DNA from: Ehretia macrophylla
Taxonomy: Eukaryota; Streptophyta; Magnoliopsida; Boraginales; Ehretiaceae
Reading direction: 5' to 3'
DNA length: 64,000 nucleotides
NCBI GenBank assembly: GCA_037974665.1
Contig: CM075768.1
Span: forward strand, 94,501-158,500
Shown here: one piece after another, positions 2,374 through 47,933 of the stretch
Layout: each line of letters starts with the position of its first letter
How positions within the stretch are numbered: position 1 is the stretch's first letter
Notes under the pieces: generated by a model
What the model was told of the DNA's origin: nothing
Seen by the model: only the letters and a program-made list of their open reading frames with translations
Databases searched by the model: none
Translations under genes and position numbers: made by a program

Positions 2374-5122
2374 ACAACACCCTGTTATAAGTTACAATAC
2401 ATGAGTCCACCTGTTAACATTTCAAACCTAGGTCTACTAAGTAGAGTAATCAACTTAGCTAGGAATCTAGTTGTCCAAAAGAATATTACAATAGGTTAAA
2501 TAGTTCAATTATACAAAATCATGCTTATTACAACAAGGAGTACATCTTCACAGGTAAGCATGTAGATCACATAAGTAGGAATCCAACTCATCACATCAAT
2601 GAGGCTTACAACCACAAGAGAGCTTGCTCGGCTAATCCTTACCTGTAATTGATCAAAAGAGGGATGAGATAGTCCTGTATATAGCTCAGTGAGGATGAAA
2701 AAGGAATGGTTTTCACAAAGGTTTTTTCTTTTCGTAAACTTCTTTCTAAAACCGTGCTATGCATATATGACAGTTACAAGATTATCAAAATTTGCAAGAA
2801 TAACCATGACAAATTAACCTCAGTCTTAATCAAGTAACAAGAAACAAAATTAAACATAATAATAAACAATCAACTCTTCTCTCTGAGGTCCTCTAGGGAC
2901 CAAACGAGATTGGTTTCAAGCTATAGCAAGATTTTCCTGGAAGACAAGTACACAAGAACAAGTTTAACATCGTATTAATTAGTCATCTCTACTCTCCGAG
3001 AACCTCAAGGGGTCAAGTGAGAGTAGGATTCTCATAATTGAAGGATACAATATCACAAACTTTGTTGGAGATGGCCAGTCTCGAGCTTTCTTGTCAAATG
3101 ATCTTCTTTACACCAATTCAGAGATGATACCCTGGAGACAACCCAAACCACAGTAGCCCAAGTCCGTCCTGGCAAGCCCAATGCTACCAAGGCGGCCTAA
3201 CACTTCTACCATGGGGTTTATTAGCATGCTTAATTGTGTCATATATATATGCCGTCCATCTCTCCCAGACAACACTCCTAATGAGAGAGGACTTCAAAAT
3301 AGCAAACAGGCTCAGAAGTAACAAAGGAGGTTGCCACCGGTTAGTAACAGTAATCAAGAACATAATAGTGAAATCATGATTCAAATAGAGTTCATATAAT
3401 ACATAAACATGCAAGTGGAGGTCAGCGAGGAAGGTTACTTTATCATGCAAGTGTTTAACCATGTAGCGACCTCATACGAACATGTAGTGATATGTGCATT
3501 GTTTAGATATTCATGAAACCAATACTCATCATGCTTGACCATATTAATACCATGTAGAAGAAGTCAACATAATCATATACCAATGGAGGGTGTAAAGATA
3601 CCTTAAAACAACTTAAGACGACAATAAAATCTAAGCTCGAACGAAACTATGAAGCATCATCAACCCTCTTGCATTAGCCTAACCTAGGAGGTTAATTTTC
3701 CCACTTTCCTTAACTCCAATTACTCTGATTTATGTCTAGAATTGAAGCTTATCAAAGGTAGATAGTTCTAGAATCAAACATAATGCAATTCGGAGTTGAA
3801 TTGACCAAGATATGGTCTTCGGAAAATTGTTGTGCAAAGCTATCAGCAGAAAACGGGTAGTCCGGTCGTGTTGATCACGACCGGGTATCAAGACCGGATG
3901 TTACTGACTTTTTTCCGGTCGTGTTACCCAGTCGTGATAACACGACAGGGTTCACCCCTGACAGGCACGATTTTCACCTCAAATTCAGCTACAACCACAA
4001 ATTCAACCCATTCTTGCTACCCCCCTTGCAACTCCTTTGCACACACCCTATTCCTCATCCTTCTACCATATTTCCAACATCACTCAAGCATACTATAACT
4101 TACATATAGACTCAATTCCAACCAAACACATTAGGGCACAACTAACAACAACAACATATCAACAACACTCAACCAACTTCACTTCAAGAGTAACACCCAC
4201 ACTTTGACATTAATCTAGCATCCTACAACACCCATAAGGCATAACGACACAATACCAAGTTATGAAATCTTAAATCATCAAATAAAGCTCATGTGAACAA
4301 TATAACACCATGTACATCTTAATCATTCTCAACAACAAGATGAACACATAACCATGAATCATATGTCTTTAGCAAAGCTTTTGAAAACATCCATCACCTT
4401 TGCAAGAGTTAGAAATGGAAGAAAGTTGATTGAAAATGGTTGAAGATCTTGAAAATAGCTTGCTTCTACTTCCCTCTTCCTTCATTTCTTCTTCTTCTTC
4501 TTCATTCTCCTTGGTAAAATCATGTAGTATGTGTATGTGTGGCTGATTGTGGGTATGGGTGTTGTAGAGATTTTGTGTGTGTAGGTAGTGTAGTGTGTGT
4601 TGAAGAGATTTGATATGTGTAGGTGGTGTAATGTGTGTTGATAGATAATATCTAAATTGCCTAATGATGAGAGTGCCCTCCAACTAGATTGTATTTTACT
4701 AGTTTGTCATCCTAGTGTTAATTCTAATTGTTTTAGTTCTAGTTTAGTTACTCTAACTACCTATTGAACTTAGTTGGTTCCAATTACTAGACACACGATA
4801 TAATTTACTCACACGCACGTTAAACGATTAAATACACGTAAATCGATATAAATGTACATAGAATGATTTAATCATTGCTTACATTATCTAAATTACTCAA
4901 AGACACATAATTGAATTTAAATACACGTTAAACAAGACATATGCACGTAAAGCGATATATATGTACATATTTTGAAATAAAAACACGTATTTCAAAGTAA
5001 ATACACGTAAATCAAGGTAATTGCACATTAATTGATATAAATGCATATTAAATAATGTAAAAATATATGTAATGCTATGAAATGCACACGAGCTCTATAC
5101 AGCCTCGGTACAGGGTCTCACA
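2374..5122 (-). repeat. Element A 3' LTR
   Basis: Minus-strand LTR starting TGTGAGACCCTGTACC at 5122, next to the polypurine tract. It aligns throughout with the copy at 6984-8629/20482-21736. About 165 bp of its end are missing because E0 interrupts it at 2374. It holds a candidate donor AAG|GTGATGG at 4397, an acceptor CAG|GT at 2644-2643, and the CCTCACTGAG box plus hairpin near 2666-2695. Confidence 0.85.
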
Positions 5123-6983: not shown

Positions 6984-8629
6984 TGTCACGCCCCGACCCT
7001 GACCCACTACTAGGTTAAGGCCGAAACATGATGTGTCAAAGCTTAACCCCTATAAGATTTGAAAGCAGAAACCTGAAACATTTATAATTTCCACAAGAAG
7101 TTCCAAAAGACTTGCAAAGTTCTCCCAAAACATCGCCTTAAAGGTTTACAACACCCTGTTATAAGTTACAATACACGAGTCCACCTGTCAACATTTCAAA
7201 CCTAGGTCTACTAAGTAGAGTAATCAACTTAGCTAGGTATCTAGTTGTCCAAAAGAATATTACAATAGGTTAAATAGCTCAATTATACAAAATCATGCTT
7301 ATTACAACAAGGAGTACATCTTCACAGGCAATCATGTAGATCACGTAAGCAGGAATCCAACTCATCACATCAATGAGGCTTGCAACCACAAGAGAGTTTG
7401 CTCGGCAAATCCTCACCTATAATTGATCAAAAGAGGGGTGAGCTAGTCCTGTATATAGCTTAATGAGGATGAAAAGGGAAGGGTTTTCACAAAGGTTTTG
7501 TCTTTTCGTAAACTTCTTTCTAAAACCGTGCTATGCATATATGACAGTTACAAGATTATTAAAATTACAAGAATAACCAGGACAAATTAACCACAGTCTT
7601 AATCAAGTAACAAAAAACGAAATTAAACATAATAATAAGCAATCAACTCTTCTCCCTGAGGTCCTATAAGGACCAAGCGAGATTGGTTTCAGGCTATAGC
7701 AAGATTTTCCTGGAAGACAATTACACGAGAACAAGTTTATCATCGTATTAATCAGTCATCTCTACTCTCCGAAAACCTCAAGGGGTCAAGTGAGAGTAGA
7801 ATTCTCATAATTCAAGGATACAATATCACAAACTTTGTTGGAGATGGCCAGTCTCGAGCTTTCTTGTCAAATCATCTTTTTTACACCAATTCAGATAGGG
7901 TAGCCCAGAGACAACCCAAACCACAGTAGCCCAAGTCCGTCCTGGCAAGCCCAATGCTACCCAAGCGGCCCAACACTTCTACTGTGGGGTATATTAGATT
8001 GCTTAATTGTGTCATATATATATAATGTCTATCTTTCCTAAGTGACACCCCTAGTGAGAAAGGACTTCAAAATAGCAAACAGGCTTGGAAGCAACAAAGT
8101 AGGTTGCCACCAGTTAGTAACAGTAATCAAGAACATAATATTGAAATCATAATTCAAATAGAGTTCATATAATACATAAACATGCAAGTAAAGGTCAACA
8201 AGGAAAGTTACTTTATCATGCAAGTGTTTAACCGTGTAACGACCTCATACGAACATATAGTGATATGCACATTGTTTTGATATTTATGAAACCAATACTC
8301 ATCATGCTTGACCATATTAATACCATGTAGAAGAAGTCAACATAGTCATATACCAAAGGAGGGTGTAAACATACCTTAAAATAACTCAAAACGACAATAA
8401 AATCCAAGCTCGAACGAAACTATGAAGCACCTTCAACCCTCTTGCATTAGCCTAACTTAAGAGGTTAATTTTCTCACTTTACCGAACTCCAATTACTCTG
8501 ATTTCAGTCTAGAATTGAAGATTATCGAAACTAAATAGTTCTAGAATCAAACAGAATGTAATTCGGAGTTGAATTGACCAAGATATGGTCTTCAAAAAAT
8601 TATTGCGAAAGTTGTCAACAGAAAAAAGG
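6984..8629 (-). repeat. Element A 5' LTR, distal part
   Basis: Begins on the plus strand with TGTCACGCCCCGACCC (the LTR end on the minus strand). It is interrupted at 8629 by element 1 and continues at 20482. The full sequence across the junction is confirmed by the uninterrupted copy near 3830 (GCAGAAAACGGGTAGTCC). Candidate acceptor ATAG|GTGAGG at 7418-7417; CCTCATTAAGC box and hairpin near 7440-7475. Confidence 0.85.
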
Positions 8630-8944: not shown

Positions 8945-11227
8945 TGTCACGCCCCGACCCGACCCCGCAAAAGGCCAAGCCCGGACCCGACACACGGACG
9001 GAGTCTCCTCTGTACCGCGGACGATCCGAAAACCCTAAAATCAACATAGTACTTACGAAAGCCATAAAAACAATTAAAACAAGCCGACTTTCTTTCAAAA
9101 CATACATCCTCTTATTAACCAACTTCCCAAACCAAAATGCCATGCATACTACACAAGTATTTATGCCACTAAACATTTAACCATTAGTATGCAATTCTTT
9201 ACTAGTCATAAGAGTATAACTTTACAACTTTACAAACTTTAAACCTTTACAACAAAAGACCGTAAAGGCCTCAAAATAGAAATACATACAATGCTACAAG
9301 CCTCAAAATAAAGCGACATCCAAGCAATATACATATTAAGCAAGGCTGGCACAAAAGTCTGGCAACCAACCACCAGCTAAGCAAAGAAGTGCCATCAAGG
9401 AAACACCTCAACTTGCTCCTCCTCCTCTATTACCTCAAGTGGATCAGCTTCAACTACTCCTGTAAAAATATAGTATAGAAAGGAATGAGCAAAACTATTG
9501 CTCAGTGAGGGCAAATGGTCTCAAGGATGGAGATGAGAGGAGTATGCAATGCAATTAGTCAAGCAATTCATACAAATATCATATAGAGATACAAACAAAG
9601 CCAACAATAAAGCATGACAAACATTCAAACTATAAACACTCATTCAAAGGATACGATACTCTTTCCACGAGCAACTTTCAATCACGAATTCGATGACGAC
9701 GCGCCGGCCCAAACCACCTTATAACACCAGTTTGGAATACCCCGGAAGTATCCATCAATCTACGACCCAAATCTCCCTGGGAGGCAACCCAAGCGAGAAA
9801 GGGAATAGGACACGGAGCTAGGGCAACCAACACTGGCAACCCGAGGCTACCCAGAGAGGCCCATCACACCGCCCTTACTCTATGAATGCAATACAATACA
9901 CAATGCAACAATCGAGCAATAAAGCCACACATGGGAAAATAACAAAGTAGGTTATTCTCGCACGCAATAGCAACAGTTGATAAGCATTTCAATCAGAATC
10001 AATTCAAACAAGTATATCAAGCAACCTTAAGCATTCTATAGGCATAATACCAAGAAAACAAGCAAAATCACAAATCGGCCCCAACTATCAAAACACTACC
10101 ATTTCCAAACGAGTAACGAGTTCTAGAAACCGACTTGGCCAATCCTCCTAGGTCACCATAAGGCACGTCTAAAGACCCCGAAACCCTACTTAACCCTAGA
10201 ATTCACGCAAAGTCCCAATTTCCCCCTTTGCTTGTTTGAACTACAACTAAACCAACCAAACACCCAACCAACGCCATAAACGCACCAAAAGTGCTTCCAT
10301 GGCCTCCCGAAACAATGCCAACAGGCAAAACGAGAAAATGCCAAACTCGACCTAAACGACCCCGACTTTCACCAAGGCATATTTCACATTTTTTCCATTA
10401 CACAACGTAAAAAAACCATGCATTTAGGCATTCTAGCATACCTAGCACATTTTCACATCAATAGAAAGCATAACAGCGCAACTTCATTGTTCCAAGGGTT
10501 TACTATTCATAAATTACTATTCAATTGACATTTAAATTACAATCTCAACATTCAACCGCAGAAAATGTTAAAAAGCTATAAATACATGTTCTACAATTGT
10601 CAAGTAACATTCTAGAAGCTTCAAAACGATTAAAACAACAATCTACAGATAAAATCTAAAAATCAAAAAGTTGACATACATAACGTTTAAATGCGCAAAT
10701 AACTTGCTTCCCTCACCTTAGGCACTCCTAGTCGCTAGGAAAACAACGCTGGTTGCCTTGGAAACCACCCCGCACGAGCTCACGCGAAGATTGAACGATT
10801 GGAAGTTGAAATTGTTTTTTTTTCTCTTCAAACTCTCGGCCTGCTCACTATTCTGTTTTCAGCTTTTAGTTTTATTTTTCTTTGTTATTTTGCTTATTAA
10901 AAGATGACAAGTTGGTCAATAGGTCAAAGCACTTGGTCAATTCACTTAAAATTGGTCAATAGGCTTATTTTTATGCATGTTTAAGCTAAAATAAACTATC
11001 ACTAAATTAATTCTAACCAACAACAATTAAAATATAAAATTTAAGTCACCTAAATACTAGTTTCACTATTTACTGAGGACTAGAAATCACTCTCTAGCTA
11101 TCGCTCCCGATATACAATGCACGTTGCGACAGCAAAGAAGTAACAATTAAATCTCAAAGAATCTAAGAAAATATAATTTTCAAAATAATATACAAGAAAA
11201 TTCCACATTCTGGGCTCGGGTATTACA
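8945..11227 (-). mobile_element. Solo LTR, gypsy type, minus strand
   Basis: 2283 bp from TGTCACGCCCCGACCC to CGGGTATTACA, flanked by a perfect target duplication TTAGG (8940-8944 and 11228-11232). No PBS, polypurine tract or coding sequence lies inside, so it is a solo LTR left by LTR-LTR recombination. Read on the minus strand it starts TGTAATACCCGAGCCC and ends GGGGCGTGACA, as in the other Tekay-like LTRs here. It holds a candidate donor CTAAG|GTGAGGG (10716), hairpin GAGCAA/TTGCTC (9487-9503), an acceptor at 9461-9460 and an acidic mini-exon. Confidence 0.93.
9395..9459 (-). other. Acidic exon-like segment in solo LTR
   Basis: After minus-strand TTTTTACAG|GA the frame offset by two bases reads VVEADPLEVIEEEEQVEVFP then stop. 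The offset (two bases before the first full codon) is the same as in the LTRs of elements 1 and 2 and the LTR at 60709. No in-frame open exon 1 exists upstream of the donor in this copy (a TAA falls at the junction), so translation is unproven. Confidence 0.3.
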
Positions 11228-13377: not shown

Positions 13378-14482
13378 ATGGATGGTAGACCAAGGACCAG
13401 AGGTAGGCCCGAGGTAGTAGATGAGACTCCTGGTAATGCGGCACCGGGCCGTGATAGGGGTGATGATCGTTTGGGGGCAGCTATGGATAGGATTGCTGAG
13501 TTAATGGCTGGACAGGCCCAGTTGATTGCAGGGCAGACTGCCTAGAGTCAGGCTTGGCAGGCTCAGTTGTTGAATGTGCAGGGTAGAAATCACGGGCGTG
13601 GTACCCTGATAGAGTTCTTAGGGTATCATCCACCTAGATTTCAGGGGGAACCCCATGATCAAAAGGCTAAATCGTGGATTAGTAAGGTGGAGAAGATTTA
13701 TGATCCTCTTGATTATACCGATGAGAAGTAGGTCTCCTTTGTCATGTACTTGTTGGATGATGAGGCAGAAGAATGGTGGCTCACGGTGACAACTAGCTGG
13801 GTGACTCAGGGTATTCCGTATGTTTGGGGTACCTTTCTGTTAGCTTTTCGGGCAAAGTATGTCCCGAGGATCGCGAGGGAGCGGAGAGAGGCTAAGTTTC
13901 TGTCTCTGGTTCAGGGGGATGCCTCAGTGGCTCAGTATAAGGCCACCTTTACTCGATTGTCTCGGTATGCACCAGAGTATATGGCTGATGAGGAGCGGAG
14001 GACTCGTAGATTCATGTTGGGGTTAAGGGCCGAGATTCAGGATGTGATGGCTCTGAATCAGTATGATATATTCACTGAGGCCTTTGATGCAGCTTCTAGG
14101 TTAGAGAAGAGAAAGGGGGATCAGCTTGTGTCCAATCAGCCTAGTAAGAGGCCGTATCAGCAGCAGTTTCAGCAGGGAGTGTATAGGCCTTCAGTAAAGC
14201 AGGTTGTGTACAGGCCGCCAGCTCAGCAGGGTTCTTTTAGGCCACAGGGACAACAGAGTTATTATCGGCCTCAGCAGGCCTAGTTTGGTAAGGCCTCAGC
14301 AGCAGACAGGTTCAGCTGCTCCTTCAGCTTCTGGTTCTTCCAGGGGAAGTGTTAATGCATCATCACCGCAGTGTACACACTACAAGCGCACTGGGCATGT
14401 GGAGGCCGATTACAGAGTGAAAGTTGGGACGTGTTTAGGATGCGGTAGCAATCAGCACTGGGCAAGGGATTGCCCTATATAA
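13378..14482 (+). pseudogene. gag: gag of element 1, broken
   Basis: ATG at 13378 (MDGRPRTRGRP) is preferred over the longer frame upstream, which starts only at TTG. Arg-rich N-terminus, then the gag capsid-like domain (DDEAEEWW, FRAKYVPRIARERRE, FLSLVQGD, VAQYKATF, APEYMADEERRTRRFMLGL), a Gln/Pro-rich linker of QQ..YRP repeats, and two CCHC knuckles. The first knuckle has two Cys changed to Tyr (CTHYKRTGHVEADY); the second, CLGCGSNQHWARDC, is intact. A TAG stop at 13543, another at 14281 and a frameshift close to 14283-14300 break it. Gag would form the RNA-packaging particle. The gag of element 2 shows the complementary knuckle defect. Confidence 0.9.
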
Positions 14483-14575
14483 TCGAGGACTGAGGGTCGG
14501 GTAGTGACTCAGGGTTATCAGGGTAGACCTGCGGGCAGTGTACCTCAGTAGGAGCGGGTTCAGGCTCGGGCCTAC

Positions 14576-14899
14576 GCAGTTGATTTGGAGGAGGTGCCCG
14601 AGGAGACTATAGTGGTGGAAGGTAACTTCGTTATACTGGATCAACTTGTTAAAGTGTTGATTGATTCTGGGGCTACGCATTCTTTCATTACTCCTGCTTG
14701 TGTGCAACGTGTTAATTTGCAACTTGAAAGATTGCCTTATGTGGTTGAGATTAGTACCTCTGTGACTGATAAGTATGTTACTGGCTTAGTATGTAAGGAT
14801 TGTAAAATACATGTTAAAGGGCATAGTTTTTCTTCGGACCTTATCTTATTTCCTATCCGGGGGTATGATGTTATCTTGGGTGTGGATTGGCTTTCTTAG
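14576..14899 (+). pseudogene. Protease domain of element 1
   Basis: Aspartic protease: VLIDSGATHSFI with the DSGA catalytic motif at 14663-14674, and the later flap-side RGYDVILGVDWLS. Same frame as the rest of pol. A TAG at 14897 (AAG in element 2) ends the open frame. It would process the Gag-Pol polyprotein. Confidence 0.9.
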
Positions 14900-14911
14900 T
14901 ATGATGCCCAG

Positions 14912-15871
14912 TTGAACTGTAGAACAAAGGTGCTACAGTTTTGTTTGCCAGATCAGCCAGTAGTTGAGGTAGTAGGGAATCGGGGTGCAAAGACGAGTTT
15001 TGTTATCTCAGCAACTAAAGCTGTTAAGTTGGTGAGTAAGGGGTGTTCGGGTTATTTAGCTTATTTGATCAACAAGCCATCTGATAAGCTACAACTGGAG
15101 GAAGTCCCTATTATTCGGGAATATCCTAATGTATTTCTCGAAGAGTTGCCAAGGTTACCGCCAGAAAGAGATGTGGAGTTTATGATTAATCTTTTTCCCG
15201 GTATTCAACCTATTTCTAAATCAGCGTACCGGATGACACCAGCTGAGTTGAAGGAGTTGAAGACTCAATTGCAGGAGTTATTGGAAAAGGGGTTTATTCA
15301 GCAGAGTTATTCACCTTGGGGAGCTCCTGTTTTATTTGTGAAGAAGAAGGATGGTACCTTGAGGTTATGCATTGACTATCGTGGTTTGAATCAGGTGACT
15401 ATCAAGAATAAGTATCCTTTGCCACTGATTGACGAGTTGTTTGATCAACTTCAGGGAGCCAAAGTCTACTCTAAGTTTGACTTGAGGCAGGGGTATTTTC
15501 AGCTTCGGATTCGTACGGAGGATGTTCCGAAGTTTGCCTTCAGGACTCGGTACGGGCATTATGAGTTTGTTGTTATGCCCTTTGGATTAACTAATGCACC
15601 GACAGCATTCATGGATCTTATGCATCGGGTTTTTCAGCCGTATTTAGACTAGTTCGTGGTAATCTTTATTGATGAAATCTTGGTCTATTCTAAATCTGAA
15701 TCGGAGCACGAGCAACATCTACGGCTTATCTTACAGAAACTGCAGGAGCATCAGTTGTTTGCCAAGTTCATCAATTGTGAATTTTGGCTGCAACGCATAT
15801 CTTTTCTTGGTCATGTTATCTCACAGAGCGGTATATCTGTAGATCCCACTAAGATTGAAGTGGTGATATCT
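14912..15871 (+). pseudogene. Reverse transcriptase domain of element 1
   Basis: Read through stops at 15650 and 15872. Typical Ty3/gypsy RT order: [15 protein letters not shown] linker, [28 protein letters not shown] (motif A Asp present), [21 protein letters not shown], then motif C at 15665-15676, which reads FIDE where the element 2 copy has FIDD. The second catalytic Asp is therefore lost. Stop 15650 is TAG for CAG and 15872 TAG for TGG in element 2. Confidence 0.95.
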
Positions 15872-15916
15872 TAGAAACGTCCGGAGAATGTTTCGGAGGT
15901 TCGTAGCTTTCTTGGC

Positions 15917-16500
15917 TTGGTAGGTTATTACCGTAGGTTTGTCAAGGACTTCTCAAAGATTGCTGTGCCACTTTCTAAGTTGACTCAGAAACGGACTATC
16001 TTTGCTTGGGATGAGAAGTGTGAGAGTGGGTTTCAGGAGTTGAAAAAGAGGTTGACTACTGCTCAAGTACTTGCTCTACCAGAGGGGACCGATAATATGG
16101 TTATTTACAGCGATACATCCAAGGAGGGCTTGGGATGTGTTCTTATGCAGAATGGCCGAGTTATTGCCTATGCTTCCAGAAAGTTGAAGCCTTATGAGGT
16201 GAATTATCCGACTCATGATCTTGAGTTGGCAGCAATTGTCTTCGCACTAAAGAAGTGGCGTCATTATCTGTGGGGCAGTAAGTTCGAGATTTTCACTGAT
16301 CATAAGAGTCTGAAGTACTTGTTCTCACAGAAGGAGTTGAATATACGTCAGTGGAGGTGGATAGAGCTTCTTGGAGATTATAATTGTTCTATCAATTATC
16401 TACCTGGCAAGGGAAATGTTGTAGCATATGCTCTTAGTCGTAAGGCGAGTATCTCTTGTTTAGCTGTCAAGAAGTGGGAGGTTCTTGAGGAGTTTACTTA
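15917..16500 (+). pseudogene. RNase H domain of element 1
   Basis: Starts with the RT thumb/connection [16 protein letters not shown], then RNase H with [11 protein letters not shown] (first Asp at 16112), [23 protein letters not shown] (Glu) and [13 protein letters not shown] (third Asp). Open across the domain. It would degrade the RNA strand during reverse transcription. Confidence 0.9.
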
Positions 16501-16639
16501 TTGGAGACCAGAGTTGACTCAGGTTGGGGTGATGTGTTCACATCTCCGTATTCAGCCTTTATTGTTGTCTCAGATCAGAAAAGCTCAGCAACTTGATGTT
16601 AAACTTCAGAAGATCAAGGATCAAATCACAGATGATCAG

Positions 16640-17815
16640 TCTGACTTTAAACTGCATAAGGACGGTATTCTTCGGTTTCAGAACAGGGTTTGTGTTCCCG
16701 ATGAACCGGGCTTGAGGCAAGGTATTCTGGAGGAAGCTCATAATTCTAAGTATATTATTTATCCCGGTGGAACCAAGATGTATCGGGATTTGAAGCAACA
16801 TTACTAGTGGAATAACATGAAGATGGAGGTTGCTCAGTTTGTATTTAGATGTTTGACTTGTCAGAGGGTGAAAGCCGAGCATCAACGACCTGCAGGGTTA
16901 CTTCAGCCGTTGGCAATACCAGAGTGGAAGTGGGAGCATATTACGATGGATTTCGTCACTGGTTTGCCTAGAACACCAAGGGGTAATGATGCAGTTTGGA
17001 TTGTCGTGGATCGTTTGACGAAGACAACTCATTTTATTTCGATGAGGTTGGGAGATGAGGTTACAAAGTTGACGGGTCTTTATTTGGATCAGATTGTTAG
17101 ACTTCATGGGATTCCATCTAGTGTTGTCTCAGATCGAGATCCTCGATTTATTTCTCGTTTGTGGGAGAAACTTCAGGAGACCTTGGGTACTCAATTGAAC
17201 TTTAGTACCGCGTATCATCCACAGACCGACGATCAGTCTGAGCGGACTATTCAGATTCTGGAAGATATGCTTAGGGCTTGTGTTCTGGACTTCGGGAAGA
17301 ATTGGGAGAAACATCTACCACTTGCCGAGTTTGCCTATAACAATAGTTATCAAGCTACTATTGGAATGGCACCTTTTGCAGTTTTTTACGGTCGTAAGTG
17401 CCGTTCACCTTTGTATTGGGACGAGGTAGGGAAGATGAAGACTATTGATCCGACTATCATGCCAGAGCTTCTTGAGAAGATTGATAATGTTCAGCTGATC
17501 AGGCAGAGAATGCTTACGGTGCAGAGTAGATTCAAGAGTTATGCTGATAAACGTCGTCGGGACTTGGAGTTTGCAGTCGGAGATCGGGTTTTCTTGAGAT
17601 TGTCTCATCGTAAGGGGTTTGCTCGTTATGGTAAAGGTGGAAAGCTGAGTCCGAGATTTGTTGTGCCATTTGAGATTACCGGCAGGGTTGGTAGGTTGGC
17701 ATATCGGTTGGCTTTACCGAAGAATTTCTCTAATGTCCACGATGTATTTCATGTGTTTAATTTGCAAATATATAATCCGGATTCTTCTCATATTCTTGAG
17801 CCAAAGCCGTTATAG
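16640..17815 (+). pseudogene. Integrase of element 1
   Basis: HHCC zinc module (AHNSK, KQHY, RCLTCQ) interrupted by a TAG at 16805 where element 2 has TGG. Catalytic core with Asp in TMDFVTG, Asp in SDRDPRF and Glu in QSERTIQ; the last two are separated by 35 residues, the D,D35E pattern. The conserved QTDGQ reads QTDDQ. The C-terminal GPF-type module is RFVVPFEITG (RFVGPFEIIG in element 2). It would insert the cDNA into chromatin. Confidence 0.93.
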
Positions 17816-18022: not shown

Positions 18023-18023
18023 T

Positions 18024-18040: not shown

Positions 18041-18589
18041 TGTGAAACCCCATTTCTCTATCCTATCTCGTTTTGCGTGTTTATTCTCGTTTTGCGTGAA
18101 TTGACCTGTCTATGTGCTATATGACTTAGAATGTGGTAATTTTGATATTAATACTCCTAGAACATGCTAAATGTGCATTCATGAAATTTTCATAAAAAAC
18201 GGAGTCAGAAATTTTATCGTCGACTTTTAGTGAATAGTATTTTCGAAACACGTCCGCTAAAATTTTGAAACTGGTCTTTTTAACCCTTCTAGACCTAGTC
18301 CACGGACTTTAATAGACTTGTGTTTGATGAAAACGGATTTTAAATCAGCTTAGGAATTTATTAGGGTTTTTATATTGACTTTTGTGAAAATTGAGTTTTA
18401 AGCCGACTCGGGTGAAATTGTTTGATTGTAAAACTTCTTGTCACCTAAAAATAACCTGCTTGAGCTATCTTGGGTGTTGAATAATTGTTTTGAGCATTAA
18501 TGATCAAGAAAATGAATTTAAAGTCAATAAAACACTAAAAATCAATTAGTTTCAACTTTGACTTTCATTTAAAATGTTGACCTTTATGC

Positions 18590-18597
18590 ATATATCA
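18590..18597 (+). promoter_or_regulatory. TATA-like promoter site, element 1 3' LTR
   Basis: CATATATCA, followed by ACACACA-rich leader. Aligns with TTATATG in the element 2 LTRs (24447 and 38167). Absent from the element 1 5' LTR because of the 245-bp deletion. Confidence 0.45.
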
Positions 18598-19980
18598 CCA
18601 ACACACACAAGCAAAGCACAAAAACATACCCATTTTCACACACATTGCCATGAGGAAGGAGAGAAAAAAAAAGGGAAAGAAATTTCAAGGTTTTCAAAGC
18701 AAATTTTCATAGAAAAACCTAGTTTTTGTCTGTAGAACTTTGTGCCGAGTTGGATTCCGCTTGTTGGGCACGCATTGCACTCATATCTAGGCTTTTATCG
18801 CATCAAAGGTGAGAGAAAAATTCTAGGTCTCAAAACTAATATTTTATGTTTTTGCGTAGAATTGATAATTGAACCGTTAAAATGTTAATTTGATATTAGA
18901 TTATTGCTCAGTGCGTGTCTAGGATCGTTTATATGTATTCCTGTGAGATTTGAACCGTTGTAGCATAATTATTTATTTTCGGGTATTTAAAGTTGAGTTA
19001 TTTGCTATTTCTTGATTATCTTGAGTTGTATTGGTTGAAATTGATTGCCGTCGATTTTTAAAAGTTTGATAATTACGTGGTAGCACCGTTGTAATGCCGA
19101 ATTTTCGATTGCAAGGTCGGTGCTAAAGTCCAGAAATTTCAGCCATGACGCATTAGTGTTTTAGGGTTGTTGGGCATGATCTGGATGTGTTTTGGTTGGT
19201 TTCCGAGGGGGCTAATGTAGTTGATTGATTGGGTGAGTGATAGAAACTGATTTGGAGTGGTTTGGACTAGTAGAATGTAGGTTATGAATATTTGAAGTTT
19301 AGGTTGTCTTTCTTTAAAATGTTAAATTATGCCTTTAGTTGATTGTGTGTGGTTTGAGTGATTGAATTGTGAGTTGTTGATGGGTAAACTAGGGTTTGAT
19401 TGTGTGTTTAATGCATGTTCGGTTGGATGGCCTACTTTGTCATCTAACTTAGTTATTTGTTGTTAAATTGCTTATTGATGTTATTATGATGATAATATGA
19501 TTATTGATTGATTATTGGTTGATGATTGATGAACCGGGAGATAGTCAACAGAAAAGGTTGTCCTCCTATGAATGATTGATGTTTATTATTATTGTTGAGT
19601 CTTTGGTATGTGTGTGCCACATCTCGGGCAGCATCGGGCTGTCGAGTTGATAACGGCATGACTACCAAAGACTACCTCCAGCTCGCATGACGGAGGTATC
19701 ATAGAGGGAGAGGTTATTGGGGTACCTCGGGTCCGTGAGTGTATGGGAGTCACAAGAAGGCTGTTATGATCGTGATGACGTTTGGAGCTATAGCAACTAG
19801 TGTATCCTTTATTGAATGGTCATTATAGATTATGTGATGATAGTATTATTGATGTTATTGTGTGTTTACTTGCTCAAATGATCATTTTCCAAGGAGTATA
19901 GTGAATACTGTTAAAGATCTATCGGATCCTCACTGGGCTTATTTTATATTAGCTCACTCTCTATTATTGCATGCTTACAG

Positions 19981-20072
19981 GTGTCCTTTCACAAGATTAC
20001 GGGTACGTGCCTCCAGAAGAGGATAATGTGCCTTTCGTGGATGAGTCTTATGTTCCGGAGTCTTATCCTTGA
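19981..20072 (+). other. 92-nt acidic exon-like segment, element 1 3' LTR
   Basis: Same frame, length and stop as 12614-12705; reads VLSQDYGYVPPEEDNVP and ends ESYP-stop. Confidence 0.35.
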
Positions 20073-20481
20073 TGTTGTATTGTTTTACTGTCTTGTATAT
20101 TAACTTAGTAGACTTTTATATGCTTTGTAGTTCATAATGTAAAAGAGGTTGAAAAGATGATGATCTAAATGATGTTATCTTAGTAGTCTTTCTTTTTTCT
20201 ATGTTTAGGTTTCTAGGTTGGTATCAATATGTTTTGTAATGTACATTAAAGTTCATGTAATATGTTGGAATAGAGGCGTATAACAAAGGATGATTATGGT
20301 GTAATGTGGTTATGTTGTTATTTTATTAAGTTGTTTGTTGTATGGTTTATAGAGTTGATGTATGATGTTCTAATGAGGTTGGTTTAGAGCCTCGGTATCC
20401 TATTTACTGTCGTTATACTGTCGAAATTATGTTGCATCCTGACTGATCGTAGGTGGGGTCGAGTTGGGGCATGACAAAAGG

Positions 20482-21736
20482 GTAGTCCGGTCGTGTCGAT
20501 CATGACCGGGTATCAAGACCGGATGTTACTGACTTTTGTCCAGTCGTGATAACACGACAGGGTTCATCCCCAGACAGGCATGATTTTCATCTCAAATTCA
20601 CCTTCAACCACAAATTCAACCCATTCTTGCCACCACCCTTGCAACTCTTTTGCACACACCCTATTCCTCATCCTTCTACCATATTTCCAACATCACTCAA
20701 GCATACTATAACTTATATATAGACTCAATTCCAACCAAACACATTAGGGCACAACTAGCAACAACAACATATCAACAACACTCAACCAACTTCACTTCAA
20801 GAGTAACACCCACACTTAGACATTAAACTAGCATCCTACAACACCCATAAACCATAACCACACAATACCAAGTCATGAAATCTTAAATCATCAAATAAAG
20901 CTCATGTGAATAATATAACACCATGTACATCTTAATCATTCTCAACAACAAGATGAACACATAACCATGAATCATATGGCTTTAGCGAAGCTTTTGAAAA
21001 CCTCCCTCACCTTTGCAAGAGTTAGAAATGGAAGAAAGTTGATTGAAAATGGTTGAAGATCTTGAAAATAGCTTGCTTCTACTTCCCTCTTCCTTCCTTT
21101 CTTCTTCTTCTTCTTCCTTCTCCTTGGAAAATCGTGTAGTGTGTGTATGTGTGGTTGATTGTGGGTGTGTGTGTGTTGTAGAGATTTTTTGTGTGTAGGT
21201 GGTGTAGTGTGTGTTGTAGAGATTTGGTGTGTGTAGGTGGTGTAGTGTATGTTGATAGATAATATCTAAATTGCCTAATGATGAGAGTGCCCTCTAACTA
21301 GGTTGTGTTTTACTAGTTTGCCATCCTAGTATTAATTCTAATTGTTTTAGTTCTAGTTTAGTTACTCTAACTACCTATTGAACTTAGTTGGTTCCAATTA
21401 CTAGATACACGATATAATTTACTCACATGCACGTGAAACGATGAAATGCACGTAAATCGAGGTAAATGTACATAGAATGATTTAATCATTGTTTACGTTA
21501 TCTAAATTACTCAAAGACACATAATTGAATTTAAATACACGTTAAACGAGACATGTGCATGTAAAGAGATATATATGTACGTATTTTAAAATAAAAGAAC
21601 ATATTTCAAAGTAAATGCACGTAAATCAAGGTAAATGCACATTAATTGATATAAATGCATATTAAATAATGTAAAAATATATGAAATGCTATGAAATGCA
21701 CACGAGCTCTATATGGCCTCGGTACGTGGTCTTACA
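20482..21736 (-). repeat. Element A 5' LTR, proximal part
   Basis: Continuation of 6984-8629 after element 1. Minus-strand LTR start TGTAAGACCACGTACC at 21736. Contains the candidate donor CAAAG|GTGAGGG (21010). Right of 21736 the sequence is the LTR of element C. Confidence 0.9.
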
Positions 21737-23897: not shown

Positions 23898-26307
23898 TGT
23901 GAGACCCCATATTTTGCTTTATCTCGATTTGCGTGTTTTACTTTATTTTGTGTGAATTTACCTATTTGTTTGCTATATGACTTAGAATGTGCTAAATATG
24001 TGATTAATACTCCTAATACATGCTAAGTGTGCATTCATGAAATTTTTATCAAAAACAGAACTAGAAATTTTATCGTCGGTTTTGGTGAATAGTATTTTGA
24101 GCACATGTCCGTTAAAATTTTTACAGGGGTGTTTTAAACGTTTTAAAACCTAGTCATCGGGTATTAATAGACCCGTGTTTGATTAAAACGGATTTGGAAT
24201 CAGTTTTGAAATTTTAAAGATTTTTATACTTTCTTTTGCAAGAAAACGAGTTTTAAGCCGACTCGAGTGAAACTATTTTAATGTAACACTCTTTGTCACC
24301 TAAAATATATTGCATAGAATTAATTTAGTTGTTAATTTAATAGTTGAGCAAGAAATAGTCATTAAAGGACTTAAAAGACTAAAAAAAATAGAATTAAAAG
24401 ACTAAATAATTAACTTTGACCATTCTTATTTTTGTTTGACCTTTACTTATATGCATCAACACACAATTGCAAAGCACAAAAACACACTCAAAACACACAC
24501 AAGGTGGCCGAAACTCCATGGCTTGTTTGTGAGCTTTTTCAACATTTTTTTCAAGAAAATTTTCATTAGAAGTTGCAATTAAAGGCCAATTTCCATCAAC
24601 CAAAGCTTGATTTCACCTCTTGAGCATTCATTGAAGATCTTTGTAGTTTCAAAACACATCATAGGTGAGAGAAAAATTTTAGATCTCAAAAGTCATTTTT
24701 TATGTTTTTGCTTATAATTGCATTTTGAAGAGTTAGAATGTTAATTTGAAGTTATATTATTGCTCAGTGCATGCTAATGATCGATTATATGTATTCTTAT
24801 AAGATTTGAACCGTTGTAGCATAAATTTTTATTTTCGGGTATTTAAATTTGATAGATTGGCCAATTGTTGAATATTTTGAGTTGTAATGGTTGGAATCGA
24901 TTGCCGTCGATTTCTAAAAGTTTGTTAATTACGTGGTAGCGTTGTTATAGTGCCGAATTTTTTATTGCGATGTTTGTGTGAAAATCTAAAAATTTCAGCC
25001 TAGGTGCATTGAGGTTTTAGGGTTGTTGGGCTTGATTTTGATGTGTCTTGGTTGGTTTTCGAGAGGACTAATGTAGTTGATTGAATGAGTGAGTGATAGA
25101 AACTGATTTGAAGTTGTTTGGATTAGTAGAATGTAAGATATGATTATTTGAAGTTTAGGTTGTCTTTCTTTAAAATGTTGAGTTATGCCTTTAGATGATT
25201 GGGTGGTGTTTGAGTGATTGAATTGTGAGTTGTTAATGGTTAGACTAGGGTTTGATTACATGTTTAATGCATGTTAAGTTGGATGGCCTAGTTTGTCATC
25301 TAACTTAGTTGTTTATTGTTTAATTGATTACTTGATGTTATATTGATGCAAATATGATTATTGATTGATTATTGATGAACCGGGAGATAGTCAACGGAAA
25401 CGGTTGTCCTCTTGTGATATGATGTTTATTATTATTGCTGAGTCTTGGTATGTGTATGCCACCTCTCGGGCAACGTCGGGCTATCAGGTTGATAACGGCA
25501 TGACTACCAAAGGCTACCCCTAGCTCGCATGATAGAGGTGTCATGGAGGGAGGGGCTACTGAGGTACCTCGGGTGCGTGAGTAATGGGGAGTTATAAGAA
25601 GAAAGGTTGAGATTGTGATGGCGTTTGGAGCTACACCAACTAGAGTATCCTTTATTGATTGGTCATTATAGTTATATGTTTATATTGTTATTGATGTTTT
25701 ATTGTGTGTTTACTGCACAAAGGATCATTTCCAAGGAGTATAGTAAATACTGTTAGAGATCTATCGGATCCTCACTAAGCTTATTTTATATAAGCTCACT
25801 CTCTATTATTGCATGCATGCAGGTGTTACTGATTCTGACTACGAGTACGTGCCTCTTGAAGGGGAAAATGTGCCTTTCGTGGATAAGTCTTATGTGCAGG
25901 AGTCATTGCCATGAGATTGTTTGTAGTTGATGTATTATGATGTATTATAAACCTACTTTAACTTAAAGACTTATGTATAATGATTTAGTGGTCTTTATTT
26001 TGATTATGTTTAGATTACTAAGTTGGTTTATAATCTATTTTGATATGTATGTATAGATTATGTATGAAGTTGGAACGGAGGCGTATAACTATGAATGGGT
26101 TGTTGAAGGAATGATTACTGTATAATATGGTTATGTTGTATGTTGTTAACTTAATTGAGGAGTTGATTGTTGAATGGTTGAGGAGTTTGGTTGTATGATA
26201 TTCTGAGAGGTTGGTTTAGAGCTTCGGTGTCTTAATTACTGTCGTTATACTGTCGAAATTTCGTTGCATCCTGACTGATTGTATGGGGGTCGAGTTGGGG
26301 CGTGACA
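23898..26307 (+). repeat. Element 2 5' LTR
   Basis: 2410 bp, TGTGAGACCCC to GGGGCGTGACA. TATA-like site 24447-24453, GGCCGAAACTC leader motif 24507-24517, candidate donor ATAG|GTGAG at 24665, hairpin AAGCTTAT/ATAAGCTC at 25777-25797, acceptor ending 25822 (predicted intron 1158 nt), exon-like segment 25823-25914. Confidence 0.93.
25823..25914 (+). other. 92-nt acidic exon-like segment, element 2 5' LTR
   Basis: Two bases then VTDSDYEYVPLEGENVPF and on to VQESLP-stop. Same length and stop as in element 1. Confidence 0.35.
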
Positions 26308-26313
26308 TTTAAG

Positions 26314-29333: not shown

Positions 29334-29891
29334 TGTGATAGCCCGAACCCGGCACGCATTTAATGGCATTTAGATGCATTTAATTGATTGTTTAACTTAG
29401 TTTATTCATTTTGCATAAATTTCATATTTCTTTTTAAAAGTATTTCAATAATACTTACATTAATTATTTTAAATGAGTATTAACTATTTTGATTGTTTTC
29501 AAAACTCGGATTTATTTTCTTGCACTTAAATTACTTTATTTTTGACAAAATGGAAAAGTAACTCCGAGGCGGAGTAGGTTTTAAACTATTCTACTATTCT
29601 ACTTTTCAAAAATTATATTTTTATGAAATTGCTTATCATTCTAGTAGTGATCGTTTATTCACCGCTTGATCGTATCGCATTGAAAATGAAAGTTAGAGGA
29701 ATATTTCTCGGATTTTGTGAATAGTATTTCTAGTTTAATTTAACTAGTTTTTAGTTGATTTTTATTGAATTGTAAGGTTTTAACTTGAATTAGATTAAAT
29801 GGTATCAAAATAGGCTAATTTGACCATTTTTAACTTGATTTTGACAAAGCCTTTTTTCCTTTGACCATTTTGCCCCTAAGTTGTCATCTTT

Positions 29892-29898
29892 TATAAAA
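29892..29898 (+). promoter_or_regulatory. TATA box of element D 5' LTR
   Basis: TATAAAA in CTTTTATAAAACAAAGG, upstream of a purine-rich leader. Identical site at 33706-33712 in the 3' LTR. Confidence 0.65.
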
Positions 29899-31316
29899 CA
29901 AAGGAAAGAAAGAAAAACAAGGCAAAGGCCACCATGGCCGAAACTCAAGGGAAAAAGAAAAAAAATTGTTTTCATTTTTCTTGCACAATCTTGAGTAGAA
30001 TTGCTCGGGGATCGTGGCTCGGGTCCTTGCGGGTCTTCTTCTTCAATCTCTGTGAAGTTTTTCATGTTTTTGTGCATTTTTATTTAAATTTGATTTTTGT
30101 TACAACTTTTCAGATTTTATATTTATCGCGTTATAATGCCTGTTATTTCTTGAAATAACTTCCTTAGGGTTCGTAGAGCATTGCTTGTTAGTTAATTAGC
30201 AATTTTTACGGCTAGAAACGCAAATTGAAATTAGGGAAGAACGTGAATAGTAAAAATAAATAGTAAAACCCAATATTTTTTGATTTTTGATTTGAATTGC
30301 GATTTCTTGATTTGGATAGGTGCCATTAATGATAGAAAGATAAAATGTGCAATAAAAACGGACCGGCCTTTGTTAAAATTGGAAATTAGACAAAGAAACA
30401 TAAAGGGGCCATTTGACCAAGTGTTGACCATGCTCGAATTGAGTTGGGGGTTTTGCTATTGAGGGCATGGAAGCATTTTTGGAGTTGTTGTGGCGTTGAT
30501 TGAGCGACCGGTTAGCATAGTTGTAGTTCAAACACAGTAGGCGGACTTTTGGGCTTCAGTTGGGAAAGTGAAGTTTCTTGCCATAGAAACGTTCCTTGTA
30601 GTGCCTACCTGAAGGTAGTGAAATCGGTTTCCAAATCCTGTAGCTCGTTTGTTCGTAATTGCCTTTGGAAGTTAGAGATTGAATAGTGATATTTGTCATT
30701 TTCATGTTTGAACTGCTATTACGTGTTTAATTGATGTTCTTGTTGATGTTAATAATAATCGTGCTTGAAAAGTTAATTGAATGCTAATAGTGATTGTAAA
30801 TGTTTGATATCTCGTATATCGCCACTAATCTGCACTTTGGTGCTATCGCTCGTTTATTACTTGTATCTAGTATTGTATTGCATAGTGTCAGGCGCGTGAG
30901 TGATGGGCCTCTCTGGGCAGTCTCGGGCTGCCAGGGTTGGTTTGCTCTAGCTCCGTGTCCTATTCCCATTCTCGCTAGGGTTGCTGCCCTAGGACATTTG
31001 GGTCGTAGATATGTCGGGGTATATCCGGAGTACACCCAGTGGAAGTTATAAGGTGGTTGCGCGCTTATTGTCATCGTTGTCAACATCAAGCTCAAGATTG
31101 ATGTATTGCTCGTGAAATGGTACATTGCTCGTATGAGTGAACCATAGCCTTCAAAGTGTGGTATAGCTTTGAGTAGTTGTGTTAATACTTTTATTAATTG
31201 TTTATTGTATTGTTGTCTATATTGATTGCTTTACTTGTAAGTTATATTGCTTAACTGTCTTATTTGCATTGCATGATCTTATTTCTCTCCACCTCGATAT
31301 CTGTTTCGCCCTCACT

Positions 31317-31339
31317 GAGTATACGTGTTGTGTATACTC
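31317..31339 (+). other. LTR hairpin, element D 5' LTR
   Basis: GAGTATAC-GTGTTGT-GTATACTC, eight perfect pairs after CCCTCACT. Repeated exactly at 35133-35155 in the 3' LTR. Different arm sequence from elements 1 and 2. Confidence 0.65.
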
Positions 31340-31839
31340 ACTCTTCACCACCACATTTCAGAAAATACCATGTTAGCTGGAAAGTTCGTGGTTATGTGAT
31401 AGATCGTGCTTGAAGAATTGTCTTGCGTGCTATGTGGCTTGAGTTGTCAAATATGTAAAGATTTTACTTTCATGAGATGTATATAATCAATGTGTAAAGA
31501 AAAGTCATTTAAGATTTATGTATATGTTAGTAAGTTCTAGATTCAATGCATGTTTGTATTGTCTAAAGGAAAGAGTTAGAATAGTTTGGGTACTTGGAAA
31601 TGTATATATACTTGTTGTGTTTAATTGTTGAGAACCGAGGCTCGGATGGCCTTGAGAAATTTTGAATGGTTGAACACGGTGCTGGTCCACTTATATGCTG
31701 TCGCAGGTTTGCATTTTGCCTAGAAACAGGAGAGACTCCTTCCGTTTTTTCCTAAATTTTATGCCTAGATTTGGAATTGGGTTGGGATTAGATTGATTGA
31801 TAGAACTTCCGGTCTCGAGAGGGATCGGGCTGTTACAAG

Positions 31840-33146: not shown

Positions 33147-35630
33147 TATGATAGCCCGAACTCGGCACGCATTTAATGGCATTTAGATGCATTTAGTTGA
33201 TTGTTTAACTTAGTTTATTCATTTTGCATTGATTTCATATTTCTTTTTAAAAGTATTTCAATAATACTTACATTAATTATTTTAAATGAGTATTAACTAT
33301 TTTGATTGTTTTCAAAACTCAGATTTATTTTCTTGCACTTAAATTACTTTATTTTCAACAAAATAGAAAAGTAACTCCATGGCGGAGTAGGTTTTAAACT
33401 ATTCTACTATTTTACTTTTCAAAAATTATATTTTTATGAAATTGCTTATCATTCTAGTGGTGATCGTTTATTAACCGCTTGATCGTATCGCATTGAAAAT
33501 GAAAGTTAGATGAATATTTCTCGGATTTCATGAATAGTGTGTATAGTATAATTTAACTAGTTTTTAGTTGATTTTTTTTTGAATTGCAAGGTTTTAACTT
33601 GAATTAGATTAAATGGCATCAAAATAGGCTAATTTGACCATTTTTAACTTGATTTTGACCAAGCCTTTTTGCCTTTGACCATTTTGCCCCTAAGTTTTCA
33701 TCTTTTATAAAACAAAGGAAAGAACAAAAAACAAGGCAAAGGCCACCATGGCTGAAACTCAAGGAAAAAGAAAAAAAAGATTGTTTTGCATTTTTCTTGC
33801 ACGATCTTGCGTGGAATTGCTTGGGGATCGTGGCTCGGGTCCTTGCAAGCCTTCCTCTTCAATCACTGTGAGGGTTTTCACGTTTTTGTGTATTTTTTTA
33901 TTTGAATATGATTTTTGTTTTAAATTTTCAGATTTGATATTTATCACGTTATAATGCTTGTTATTGCTTGAAATAACTTTCTTAGGGTTCATAGAGCATT
34001 GCTTGTTAGTCATTTAGCAATTTTTACGGCTGAAATTGCATATTTGAATTAGGGAAGAACGTGAATAGTAAAAATAAATAGTAAAACCCAAGATTTTTGG
34101 ATTTTTGATTCGAATTGCGATTTCTTAATTTGGATAGGTGCCATTAATGTTAGAAAGATAAAATGTGTAATAAAAACGGACTGACCTTTGTTAAAATTGG
34201 AAATTAGACAAAGAAACGTAAAGGGGTCGTTTGACCAAGTGCTGACCGTGCTCGAATTGAGTTGGGGGTTTTGCTATTGAGGGCATGGAAGCACTTTTGG
34301 CGCTGTTGTGGCATGGATTGAGTGTCCAGTAGCATAGCTGTAGTTCAAACGCAGTAGGTGGACTTTCGGGCTTCGGTTGGGAAAGTGAAGTTTCGTGACA
34401 TAGGAACATGCCTTGTAGTGCCTAAGTATAGGTAGTGAAATCGGTTTCTTAATCCCGTAGCTCATTTGCTCGTAATTGCCTTTGGAAGTTAGAGATTGAA
34501 TAGTGATATTTGCTGTTTTCGTGTTTGAACAGCTATTACGTGATTAATTGATGTTCTTGTTGATGTTAATGATAATCATGCTTGAAAAGTTAATTGAATG
34601 CTAATATTGATTGTAAATGTTTGATATCTCGTATATTGCCACTAATCTGCACTTTTATGCTATCGCTCGTTTATTACTTGTATCTCGTATTGCATTGCAT
34701 AGTGTCAGGCGCGTGAGTGATGGGCCTCTCTGGGCAGTCTTGGGCTGCCAGGGTTGGTTTGCTCTAGCTCCGTGTCCTATTCCCACTCTCGCTAGGGGTG
34801 CCGCCTGGGAGATTTGGGTCGTAGATGTGTCGGGGTACATTCAGAGTACACCAAGTGGAAGTTATAAGGTGGTTGCGTGCTTATTGTCATCGTTGTCAAC
34901 ATCAAGCTCGAGATTGATGTATTGCTCGTGAAATGGTACATTGCTCGCATGAGTGAACCATAGCCTTCAAAGTGTGGTATAGCTTTGAGTGGTTGTGTTA
35001 ATGCTTTTATTAATTGTTTATTGCATTGTTGTTTATATTGAATATTTTACTTGTCGGTTATATTGCTTAACTGTCTTATTTGCATTGCACGATCTTCTTT
35101 CTCTCAACCTCGATATCTGTTTCTCCCTCACTGAGTATACGTGTTGTGTATACTCACTCCTCACCACCACATTTCAGGAAATACCATGTTAGCTGAAAAG
35201 TTCGTGATTATGTGATAGATCGTGCTTGAAGAGTTGCCTTGCGTGCTATGTGGCTTGAGTTGTCAAAGATGTAAAGATTTTACTTTCATGAGATGTATAT
35301 AATCAATGTGTAAAGGAAAGTCATTTAAGTTTTATGTATAGGTTAGTAAGCTCTGGATTCAATGCATGCTTGTATTGTCTAAAGGAAAGAGTTAGAATAG
35401 TCTGGTTACTTGGAAATGTATATATACTTGTTGTGTTTAATTATTGAGAACCGAGGCTCGGATGGCCTTGAGGAATTTTGCCACTTATATGCTATCGCAG
35501 GTTTGTATTTTGCCTAGAAACAGGGCAGACTCCGTCCGTTTTCCCCAAATTTTATGCCCGAGTTTGGAATTGGGTTGCAATTAGATTGATTGATAGAACT
35601 TCCGGTCTCGAGAGGGATCGGGGTGTTACA
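33147..35630 (+). repeat. Element D 3' LTR
   Basis: TATGATAGCCCGAAC (first G of TGTG mutated to A) to GGGGTGTTACA, 2484 bp. TATAAAA 33706-33712; GTGAGG donor-like site at 33868; hairpin 35133-35155; acceptor TTTCAG|GA ending 35177. Confidence 0.92.
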
Positions 35631-47300: not shown

Positions 47301-47933
47301 ATCCCTCATTGGGCAACTGTGTTTGCTTATTCCTCTTTTTACCATGTTTCAGGAGGAGCTAAGGTTGGAATGCCTGTTGTATGGTTTATTTGCTCAATTA
47401 GTGTGCGAGAAGTGGAGAAATGTGATTATGTTTAGCTTGTGACCTATTTGGAGACCTTATGGTTTTGTATGTTATTATGTTGTTTTGGAAGTTTGTAATA
47501 TGAAGCTTAAAGTTTTGTATGATTTGTAGTTAGAGGATGACATGTAATAACTTTAATGTTCTACCTTATTGCCTAGATAGTTGCATGCTTGTATGGGTAA
47601 ATGGAGGAAGCTTGATTGACTTAGAATCTAAGATAAGGAAGGAGATAAGATTAGAGTGGTATGATAATCGAAAACTTGATCTTAGAATTTCGATAGCTAA
47701 TGACAATGCATGCTTGTATGTCTTATATTGTTGTAGTAGAGAGGCTCGGATGGCCTTTTAGACTTAGGAAGTTATGTTGTAAATGTTTGTATATTATTTT
47801 TGTGGCTATTTCATCTGCGTGCTGGATTGTGGATAGGCCCAGAAACAGGAAAAACTTTGTTCGTTTTCCATCATTTTCGTAACCTCGGGTTTTGGATCGG
47901 GGCTCCGGTCTCCTGAGGGATTAGGGTGTTACA
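44343..47933 (+). mobile_element. Large solo LTR, gypsy type
   Basis: TGTGATACCTCGACCCC to GGGTGTTACA, 3591 bp, flanked by GACCC (44338-44342) and AACCC (47934-47938). No PBS, polypurine tract or pol inside. Distantly like the D LTRs: a GGGGTACATCCGGAGTACACC block, CCCAGAAACAGG, and the GGGTGTTACA end. TATA-rich stretch 45762-45825, donor GAG|GTGAGG at 46009, hairpin GGGCAA/TTGCTT at 47311-47328, acceptor TTTCAG|GA ending 47352. An internal TGTTACAACCCGAAC at 45247 could be a second LTR start, but no matching duplication supports it. Confidence 0.75.

Follow-up and report, generated by a model that had tools for sequence, protein, structure and literature searches.

The long terminal repeats (LTRs) of several gypsy retrotransposon families in Ehretia macrophylla appear to carry a genuine spliceosomal GT-AG leader intron. 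In one of these families, here called C, the product of splicing was copied back into DNA, and the RNA that is replicated would usually be unspliced. We put the probability of this whole account at roughly 87%, on the basis of sequence comparisons. Since the element passes through RNA, retrotransposon introns are expected to be lost, and an intron that lies wholly inside the LTR means that each new element carries the intron at both ends. Such an LTR intron would be common to several diverged families, and the genome keeps natural intron-loss events that show splicing, so that it becomes testable how a plant retrotransposon maintains separate RNAs for protein and for replication. Solo LTRs of these families may also act as promoters with their own leader exon and intron, a role that matters for gene annotation and for the joining of LTRs to host transcripts.

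Predicted leader introns in nested gypsy LTRs

The window, the whole stretch of 64,000 nucleotides that was analyzed, is filled with nested LTR retrotransposons as seen by self-BLAST (Table 1), and its source genome comprises 1.58 Gb in 20 contigs. The chlorophyll a/b-binding protein family has 35 matches in this genome, as befits a plant, and among 14 control genomes it was matched in just 1, that of a cyanobacterium. Element 1 (E1) has the features of a Ty3/gypsy element, namely, LTRs ending in TG..CA, a target-site duplication, and Pfam matches in the order reverse transcriptase (RT), RNase H (RH), and integrase (INT). The integrase end of element 2 (E2) gives a weak match to the Pfam Chromo domain (E value of 0.0073; 16.6 bits versus a curated cutoff of 25.1), and placement in the Tekay/Del chromovirus lineage is likely but provisional. 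The minus-strand LTR A2 of family A is split by E1, which was inserted inside the A2 intron. In the A-family region (2374-8629 and 20482-23893), similarity of 72 to 77% extends beyond both LTRs, which suggests an older related copy. Elsewhere in the window, a 58-bp tandem repeat occupies positions 48699-49366 (about 11.5 copies, 77% matches) and is followed by shorter related repeats up to 49985, and a minus-strand frame at 57700-58089 resembles a copia gag fragment.

The LTRs share one order of parts: a leader, a GTGAG-type donor, a U-rich stretch of 1.15 to 1.75 kb, a hairpin, and an AG followed by exon 2. When the intervals were cut out and checked, GT at the start and AG at the end were found in all nine intron copies of the window, which represent six LTR types. 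E1 and E2 are only about 76% identical, yet their intron borders correspond in position. The donor of the E1 5' LTR has been mutated from GT to TT. A sequence-only reading of this DNA had proposed donor and acceptor positions and lengths for these introns, and the excised intervals bore them out for the 3' LTR of E1, both LTRs of E2, S1, S2, and A. The exception was family C, for which a length of 1,301 bp had been given and for which intronless relatives fix the length at 1,310 bp. The same reading had held that position and order are constant while the intervening sequence diverges.

Splice sites were ranked with weight matrices that approximate plant splice sites. The proposed donor was first or second among the 182 to 229 GT sites in the 3' LTR of E1, both LTRs of E2, S1, S2, and A2 and sixth in A1; the proposed acceptor was first to fourth in the 3' LTR of E1, both LTRs of E2, S1, S2, and A1 and ninth in A2. 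The family C sites scored poorly, with the donor placed 35th in the 3' LTR and 128th in the 5' LTR and the acceptors placed 10th and 35th. T content is 0.38 to 0.56 in the first 100 nt of the intron versus 0.26 to 0.36 in the last 100 nt of exon 1, a rise that is seen in nine of nine copies. On the acceptor side the contrast in T content is weak, being absent in S2 and reversed in A.

Table 1. Positions of elements, LTRs, and predicted leader introns in the window
Feature	Position	Strand	Remarks
Element 1 (E1)	8630-20476	+	Ty3/gypsy; target-site duplication AAAGG; TG..CA termini
E1 3' LTR	18041..20476	+	self-BLAST, TG..CA termini, target-site duplication
E1 gag, RT, RNase H, and integrase remnants	13732..17815	+	several frames; Pfam matches
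Element 2 (E2)	23898-40025	+	Ty3/gypsy
E2 5' LTR	23898..26307	+	self-BLAST, termini
E2 3' LTR	37612..40025	+	self-BLAST, termini
Solo LTR S1	8945..11227	-	inside E1 5' LTR; target-site duplication TTAGG
Element C 5' LTR	29337..31837	+	element C nested in E2
Element C 3' LTR	33150..35630	+	element C nested in E2
Solo LTR S2	44343..47933	+	
LTR A1 (family A)	2374..5122	-	
S3, further LTR-like sequence	63822..63867	-	hairpin and acceptor; donor place would fall outside the window
E1 3' LTR leader intron	18809..19980	+	1,172 bp; GTGAGAG...CTTACAG; splicing predicted by homology
E2 5' LTR leader intron	24665..25822	+	1,158 bp
E2 3' LTR leader intron	38385..39539	+	1,155 bp
S1 leader intron	9460..10716	-	1,257 bp
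S2 leader intron	46009..47352	+	1,344 bp
C 5' LTR leader intron	30052..31361	+	1,310 bp; donor GTGAAG (weak), acceptor TTTCAG
C 3' LTR leader intron	33868..35177	+	1,310 bp; absent to the base in intronless relatives
A1 leader intron	2643..4397	-	1,755 bp
A2 leader intron, first part	20482..21010	-	A2 intron 1,742 bp in total
A2 leader intron, second part	7417..8629	-	E1 sits between both parts
Hairpin upstream of acceptor, E1 3' LTR	19934..19956	+	fold z of -1.13; 3' arm with CTCAC branch-site-like motif

Intronless copies of family C

Reverse transcription of spliced LTR RNA should leave genomic LTRs whose exon 1 continues directly into exon 2. Junction queries consisting of the last 120 nt of exon 1 and the first 120 nt of exon 2 were prepared for the six LTR types and searched against the whole genome. 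Among the best 40 of 5,567 candidates, the family C query gave four contiguous matches (L017 to L020, at 85, 84, 83, and 82% identity), and these junction-spanning matches ranked above half-matches of 100% identity. The four places are both LTRs of two separate insertions, one on contig C2 and one on contig C9. Their junction is exact to the base, reading CTTCAATCTCT/GAAATAYCATG, with one base different beside the junction in each of L017 and L019, and the intron-bearing C copies read CTTCAATCTCT/GTGAGGG...TTTCAG/GAAATAYCATG at the same site. The contig C9 element has a 5-bp target-site duplication (CTCGG), TG..CA ends, a primer-binding site, and LTRs that are 95.2% identical; the LTRs of the contig C2 element are 93.3% identical, and a clear target-site duplication was not seen by eye. 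Because both LTRs would take their R-U5 from one spliced RNA end, neither LTR of an intronless element is expected to have the intron. These genomic copies show that C-family RNA, spliced at exactly these sites, was reverse-transcribed and inserted. They also support the earlier proposal of a leader intron within the LTR itself, as the two exons of two C-family insertions meet at the GT and AG borders that had been predicted.

It might be argued instead that ordinary genomic deletions produced the intronless copies and that the splice-like motifs mark some other LTR element, such as a promoter, poly(A), or structural element. The low matrix scores of the C-family sites would agree with this, as would the five other LTR types, in which no intronless copy was found among the best 40 matches each. 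However, the missing interval runs base-exact from GT to AG in all four LTRs, which belong to two elements on separate contigs, and the microhomology at the junction is 1 base, so that a deletion must have struck both LTRs of an element alike or preceded the insertion, and must have done so twice at the same base. The trees described below also place the two intronless elements apart. We therefore regard deletion as very improbable, and reverse transcription of spliced C-family RNA is the reading that is followed here.

A survey of C copies comprised 42 rows, of which 6 (4 places) were intronless and 26 (24 distinct places) were intron-bearing with both exons aligned; the 3' LTR of element C in the window was counted once, 9 rows were without a usable exon 1 match, and 1 was mispaired. 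The surveyed copies were chosen by their exon 2 match and thus do not form a random sample. All 24 intron-bearing copies have an intact AG and 21 of them an intact GT, with gap lengths of 1,290 to 1,330. The intronless elements on contigs C2 and C9 (L041 and L042) have about 1.4 to 1.6 kb between their LTRs, and in element C this distance is about 1.3 kb. With internal regions this short, they probably moved with the proteins of another element.

The two intronless elements could descend from one loss or from two. When their own junctions served as queries, the same four places were recovered and all else consisted of half-matches, both for the contig C9 junction (best 40 of 4,068) and for the contig C2 junction (best 40 of 3,502). 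Trees were built from the upstream and downstream flanks of the intron within the LTR for 16 rows (4 intronless copies, the 5' and 3' LTRs of element C, and 10 intron-bearing copies), and a single intronless clade was rejected by the AU test for both the upstream part (p of 2.5e-5) and the downstream part (p of 9.3e-4). The exon 2 part of the contig C9 element is 98.1% identical to that of an intron-bearing copy (L064) versus 96.7% to its own partner LTR. The exons of the contig C2 element are 94 to 97% identical to half-matches, including parts of the intron-bearing copies L047, L059, L066, and L068, and the contig C2 and C9 elements are 87 to 89% identical to each other over the whole junction. 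Since the trees reject one intronless clade, two independent intron losses are the best reading, although recombination between LTRs could blur the signal.

An alternative is that the intronless form is one lineage, which lost its intron in a single splicing event and then moved without it. The two elements do share the junction, only four such LTRs were seen among the scored places, and a larger downstream tree of 36 rows (40 rows minus 4 that were long-branched, short, or duplicate) rejects one clade only at an AU p of 0.039. A single lineage is nevertheless at odds with the 16-row tests and with the close relatives of each element, which are intron-bearing, although LTR recombination could mislead in both comparisons. 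We consider it improbable and favor two losses.

The junctions of the other LTR types gave no spanning copy among the best 40 matches of 4,457 for E1, 3,883 for E2, 4,089 for S1, 138 for S2, and 1,121 for A. A pattern search for the E1 junction that allowed up to 3 mismatches, in a pattern form without a positive control, gave 0 matches in the genome. One S1 match that ran 13 nt beyond the junction was dismissed as overrun, and A matches running up to 10 nt beyond it were dismissed because exon 2 of A starts like the donor. Judging from the ranking obtained for family C, any spliced copy with an identity of roughly 82% or higher would probably have come first. Intronless copies were thus found in one LTR type of the six searched, and that type is the one with the weakest splice site scores. 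From the corresponding position, signals, and hairpin, we infer splicing in E1, E2, S1, S2, and A as well. Reverse transcription of spliced RNA seems to be rare or absent in these types; that no intronless copy was found among the matches scored would fit either little copying of spliced RNA or no splicing.

Comparison with known retroelement introns

The sequence-only reading had placed the known introns of retrotransposons in internal regions, and this agrees with the available parts of four accounts (PMC6317226, PMC3735527, PMC12786077, PMC7730604) and with searches of open-licence literature. A review describes plant LTR elements as generally intronless and singles out Ogre and EVADE as notable exceptions (PMC12786077). 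Ogre, a Ty3/gypsy element of the Tat lineage, resembles the present case as a gypsy element of plants with a spliceosomal intron, one that is removed from only part of the transcripts (PMC6317226). However, the Ogre intron is internal, between gag-pro and RT-RH-INT, whereas here both splice sites are found inside each LTR, upstream of gag, which is not the Ogre-type position. In the barley Ty1/copia element BARE1, spliced RNA is used for translation and a different, unspliced RNA is packaged (PMC3735527). The BARE1 intron measures 104 nt and is internal, and promoter, cap, and poly(A) further distinguish its RNA pools (PMC3735527); the intron described here measures 1.2 to 1.8 kb and is in the LTR, and its RNA pools are putative.

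Spliced subgenomic transcripts have been described for EVADE, a Ty1/copia element of Arabidopsis (PMC12786077), and spliced isoforms have been described for Tyran/Varan of sunflower (PMC7730604). The available portions of these accounts concern shortened GAG or RT-RH products and do not mention an LTR intron (PMC12786077, PMC7730604). Rice Retrosat2, which has been placed in the Tekay lineage (PMC6317226), has a predicted R region of 2 kb, and the word "intron" is absent from the available text (PMC3485330). In Ty assays with an artificial intron, loss of the intron in a new copy proves passage through RNA (PMC12786077). The elements on contigs C2 and C9 represent a natural version of this assay; the Ty intron is engineered, whereas the intron here is native and is located in the LTR. 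The exact phrase match in the literature was to the leader of an engineered lentiviral vector (PMC5542766). Text searches of open-licence literature, which was partly surveyed, found no natural retrotransposon intron lying wholly inside an LTR.

In retroviruses, of which the major splice donor of foamy virus is an example, the donor is located in the leader, unspliced RNA serves as the genome, and spliced RNA serves as the messenger. Retroviral acceptors are located in the internal region, whereas the acceptor here is in the same LTR as the donor, so that each end of the element carries the intron in full. Penelope-like elements, which Arkhipova reportedly described in 2003 as retroelements that retain introns, are similar in keeping introns. 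They are not LTR retrotransposons and replicate differently.

Content of the intron and its possible role

Identity between E1 and E2 is 85 to 86% in the intron, compared with 74% at the LTR start, 50% in the exon 1 region, 75% in the first 100 nt of exon 2, and 72 to 73% in the rest. No other part of the LTR is as well conserved between these elements as the intron, which is the opposite of a dispensable spacer, and this conservation suggests that replication probably uses unspliced RNA.

With a single copy counted for each of E (the better-pairing one), S1, C, S2, A, and S3, the hairpin upstream of the acceptor pairs at 41 of 42 positions, and single copies form 6 or 7 of 7 pairs. Its arms covary between families; only 6 of 720 arm re-pairings, the true one included, reach 41. 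Folds of single sequences have z values of -3.4 to -0.35 in seven copies, and only some of them stand out. The 3' arm holds CTCAC, CTCAT, or CTTAT about 20 to 40 nt from the AG, which we take to be a fair match to the plant branch-site consensus. The motif at the hairpin start occurs 13 times in the window, 9 of them ahead of such an acceptor, and has changed letters in the 5' LTR of E2 and in A2. Matches at 14072, 40753, 48561, and 60523 were set aside because an acceptor of this kind does not follow.

Approximately 200 to 350 nt upstream of the acceptor, a conserved intron block aligns across E1, E2, S1, C, and S2. At 19605-19765, and at the equivalent places in E2, S1, C, and S2, it reads TCGGGCTGCC ... 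GGGTCGTAG ... GGGGTACxTCCGG. A consensus fold of the block from 7 sequences has 19 pairs, 7 of them with double changes; it was made without a control and is a lead. We consider the block a candidate packaging or dimerization element. Rfam gave 0 matches at gathering scores on the window, and a search for relatives in viral contigs gave 10 integrase pattern matches, none confirmed, and 0 matches to the hairpin pattern.

We propose that transcription starts within the LTR, upstream of the donor. A TATA box (TATAAAAC) lies about 160 nt upstream of the donor in both LTRs of element C, and TATATAT runs are present in S2; nothing as clear as the C TATA box was seen upstream of the donor in the LTRs of E1, E2, S1, and A. 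The primary RNA would consist of exon 1, an intron of 1.15 to 1.75 kb, exon 2, and the internal region, and R would span the intron. Exon 1 would then be spliced to exon 2, and the hairpin, as it overlaps the branch-site-like motif, may slow splicing. The replicated RNA would usually be unspliced, and the spliced RNA would be either a messenger or a by-product. That the copies seen mostly keep the intron, as judged from best-match lists, suggests that the replicated RNA is mostly unspliced. The intron may thereby separate the RNA for translation from the RNA for replication, as retroviral leader splicing does.

A further, tentative proposal, to which we give somewhat less than even odds, is that the intron, lying as it does at both element ends, serves to sort the RNA. 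It would carry packaging or first-strand-transfer signals in cis, so that RNA is replicated only if it escapes splicing, which the hairpin over the branch site would slow, and the spliced RNA would be the messenger. The rare intronless copies would then be escapes that moved without the intron, and the arrangement would amount to an LTR-borne equivalent of leader splicing in retroviruses, old enough to be common to five or more diverged plant gypsy families (E, S1, C, S2, and A). It is also possible, although we would not call it probable, that the intron is real but serves expression by boosting transcription or export, with no separation of RNA pools. Introns of plants typically start with a T-rich stretch, as this one does, and some strong plant promoters consist of a promoter, a short leader exon, and an intron of the kilobase class. 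On the other hand, the intron-mediated enhancement motif TTNGATYTG was found 0 times in the eight introns scanned, and enhancement through this motif is not supported. Moreover, splicing of the replicated RNA as a rule should have stripped the intron, which most of the copies seen keep.

Two other roles were set aside. Removal of upstream ATGs as the sole role of the intron does not agree with the counts; the introns hold 17 to 53 ATGs, but exon 2 still has 6 to 26 before the LTR end, so that removal of the intron alone does not clear the path to gag. A protein joined from exon 1 and exon 2 was rejected, as reading by eye shows an in-frame stop within exon 1 of both E1 and S1 and the frame is broken in at least one genome copy (L002).

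A short acidic reading frame that closes with Pro-stop follows the acceptor directly at 19971-20072 in E1 (MLTGVLSQDYGYVPPEED...) and at 39530-39631 in E2 (MHAGVTDSDYGYVPLEEEN...), and S1 has a counterpart on the minus strand at 9459-9395 (GVVEADPLEVIEEEEQVEVFP). We consider it a candidate upstream open reading frame or purine-rich splicing enhancer. An in-frame ATG closely precedes the acceptor in both E1 and E2.
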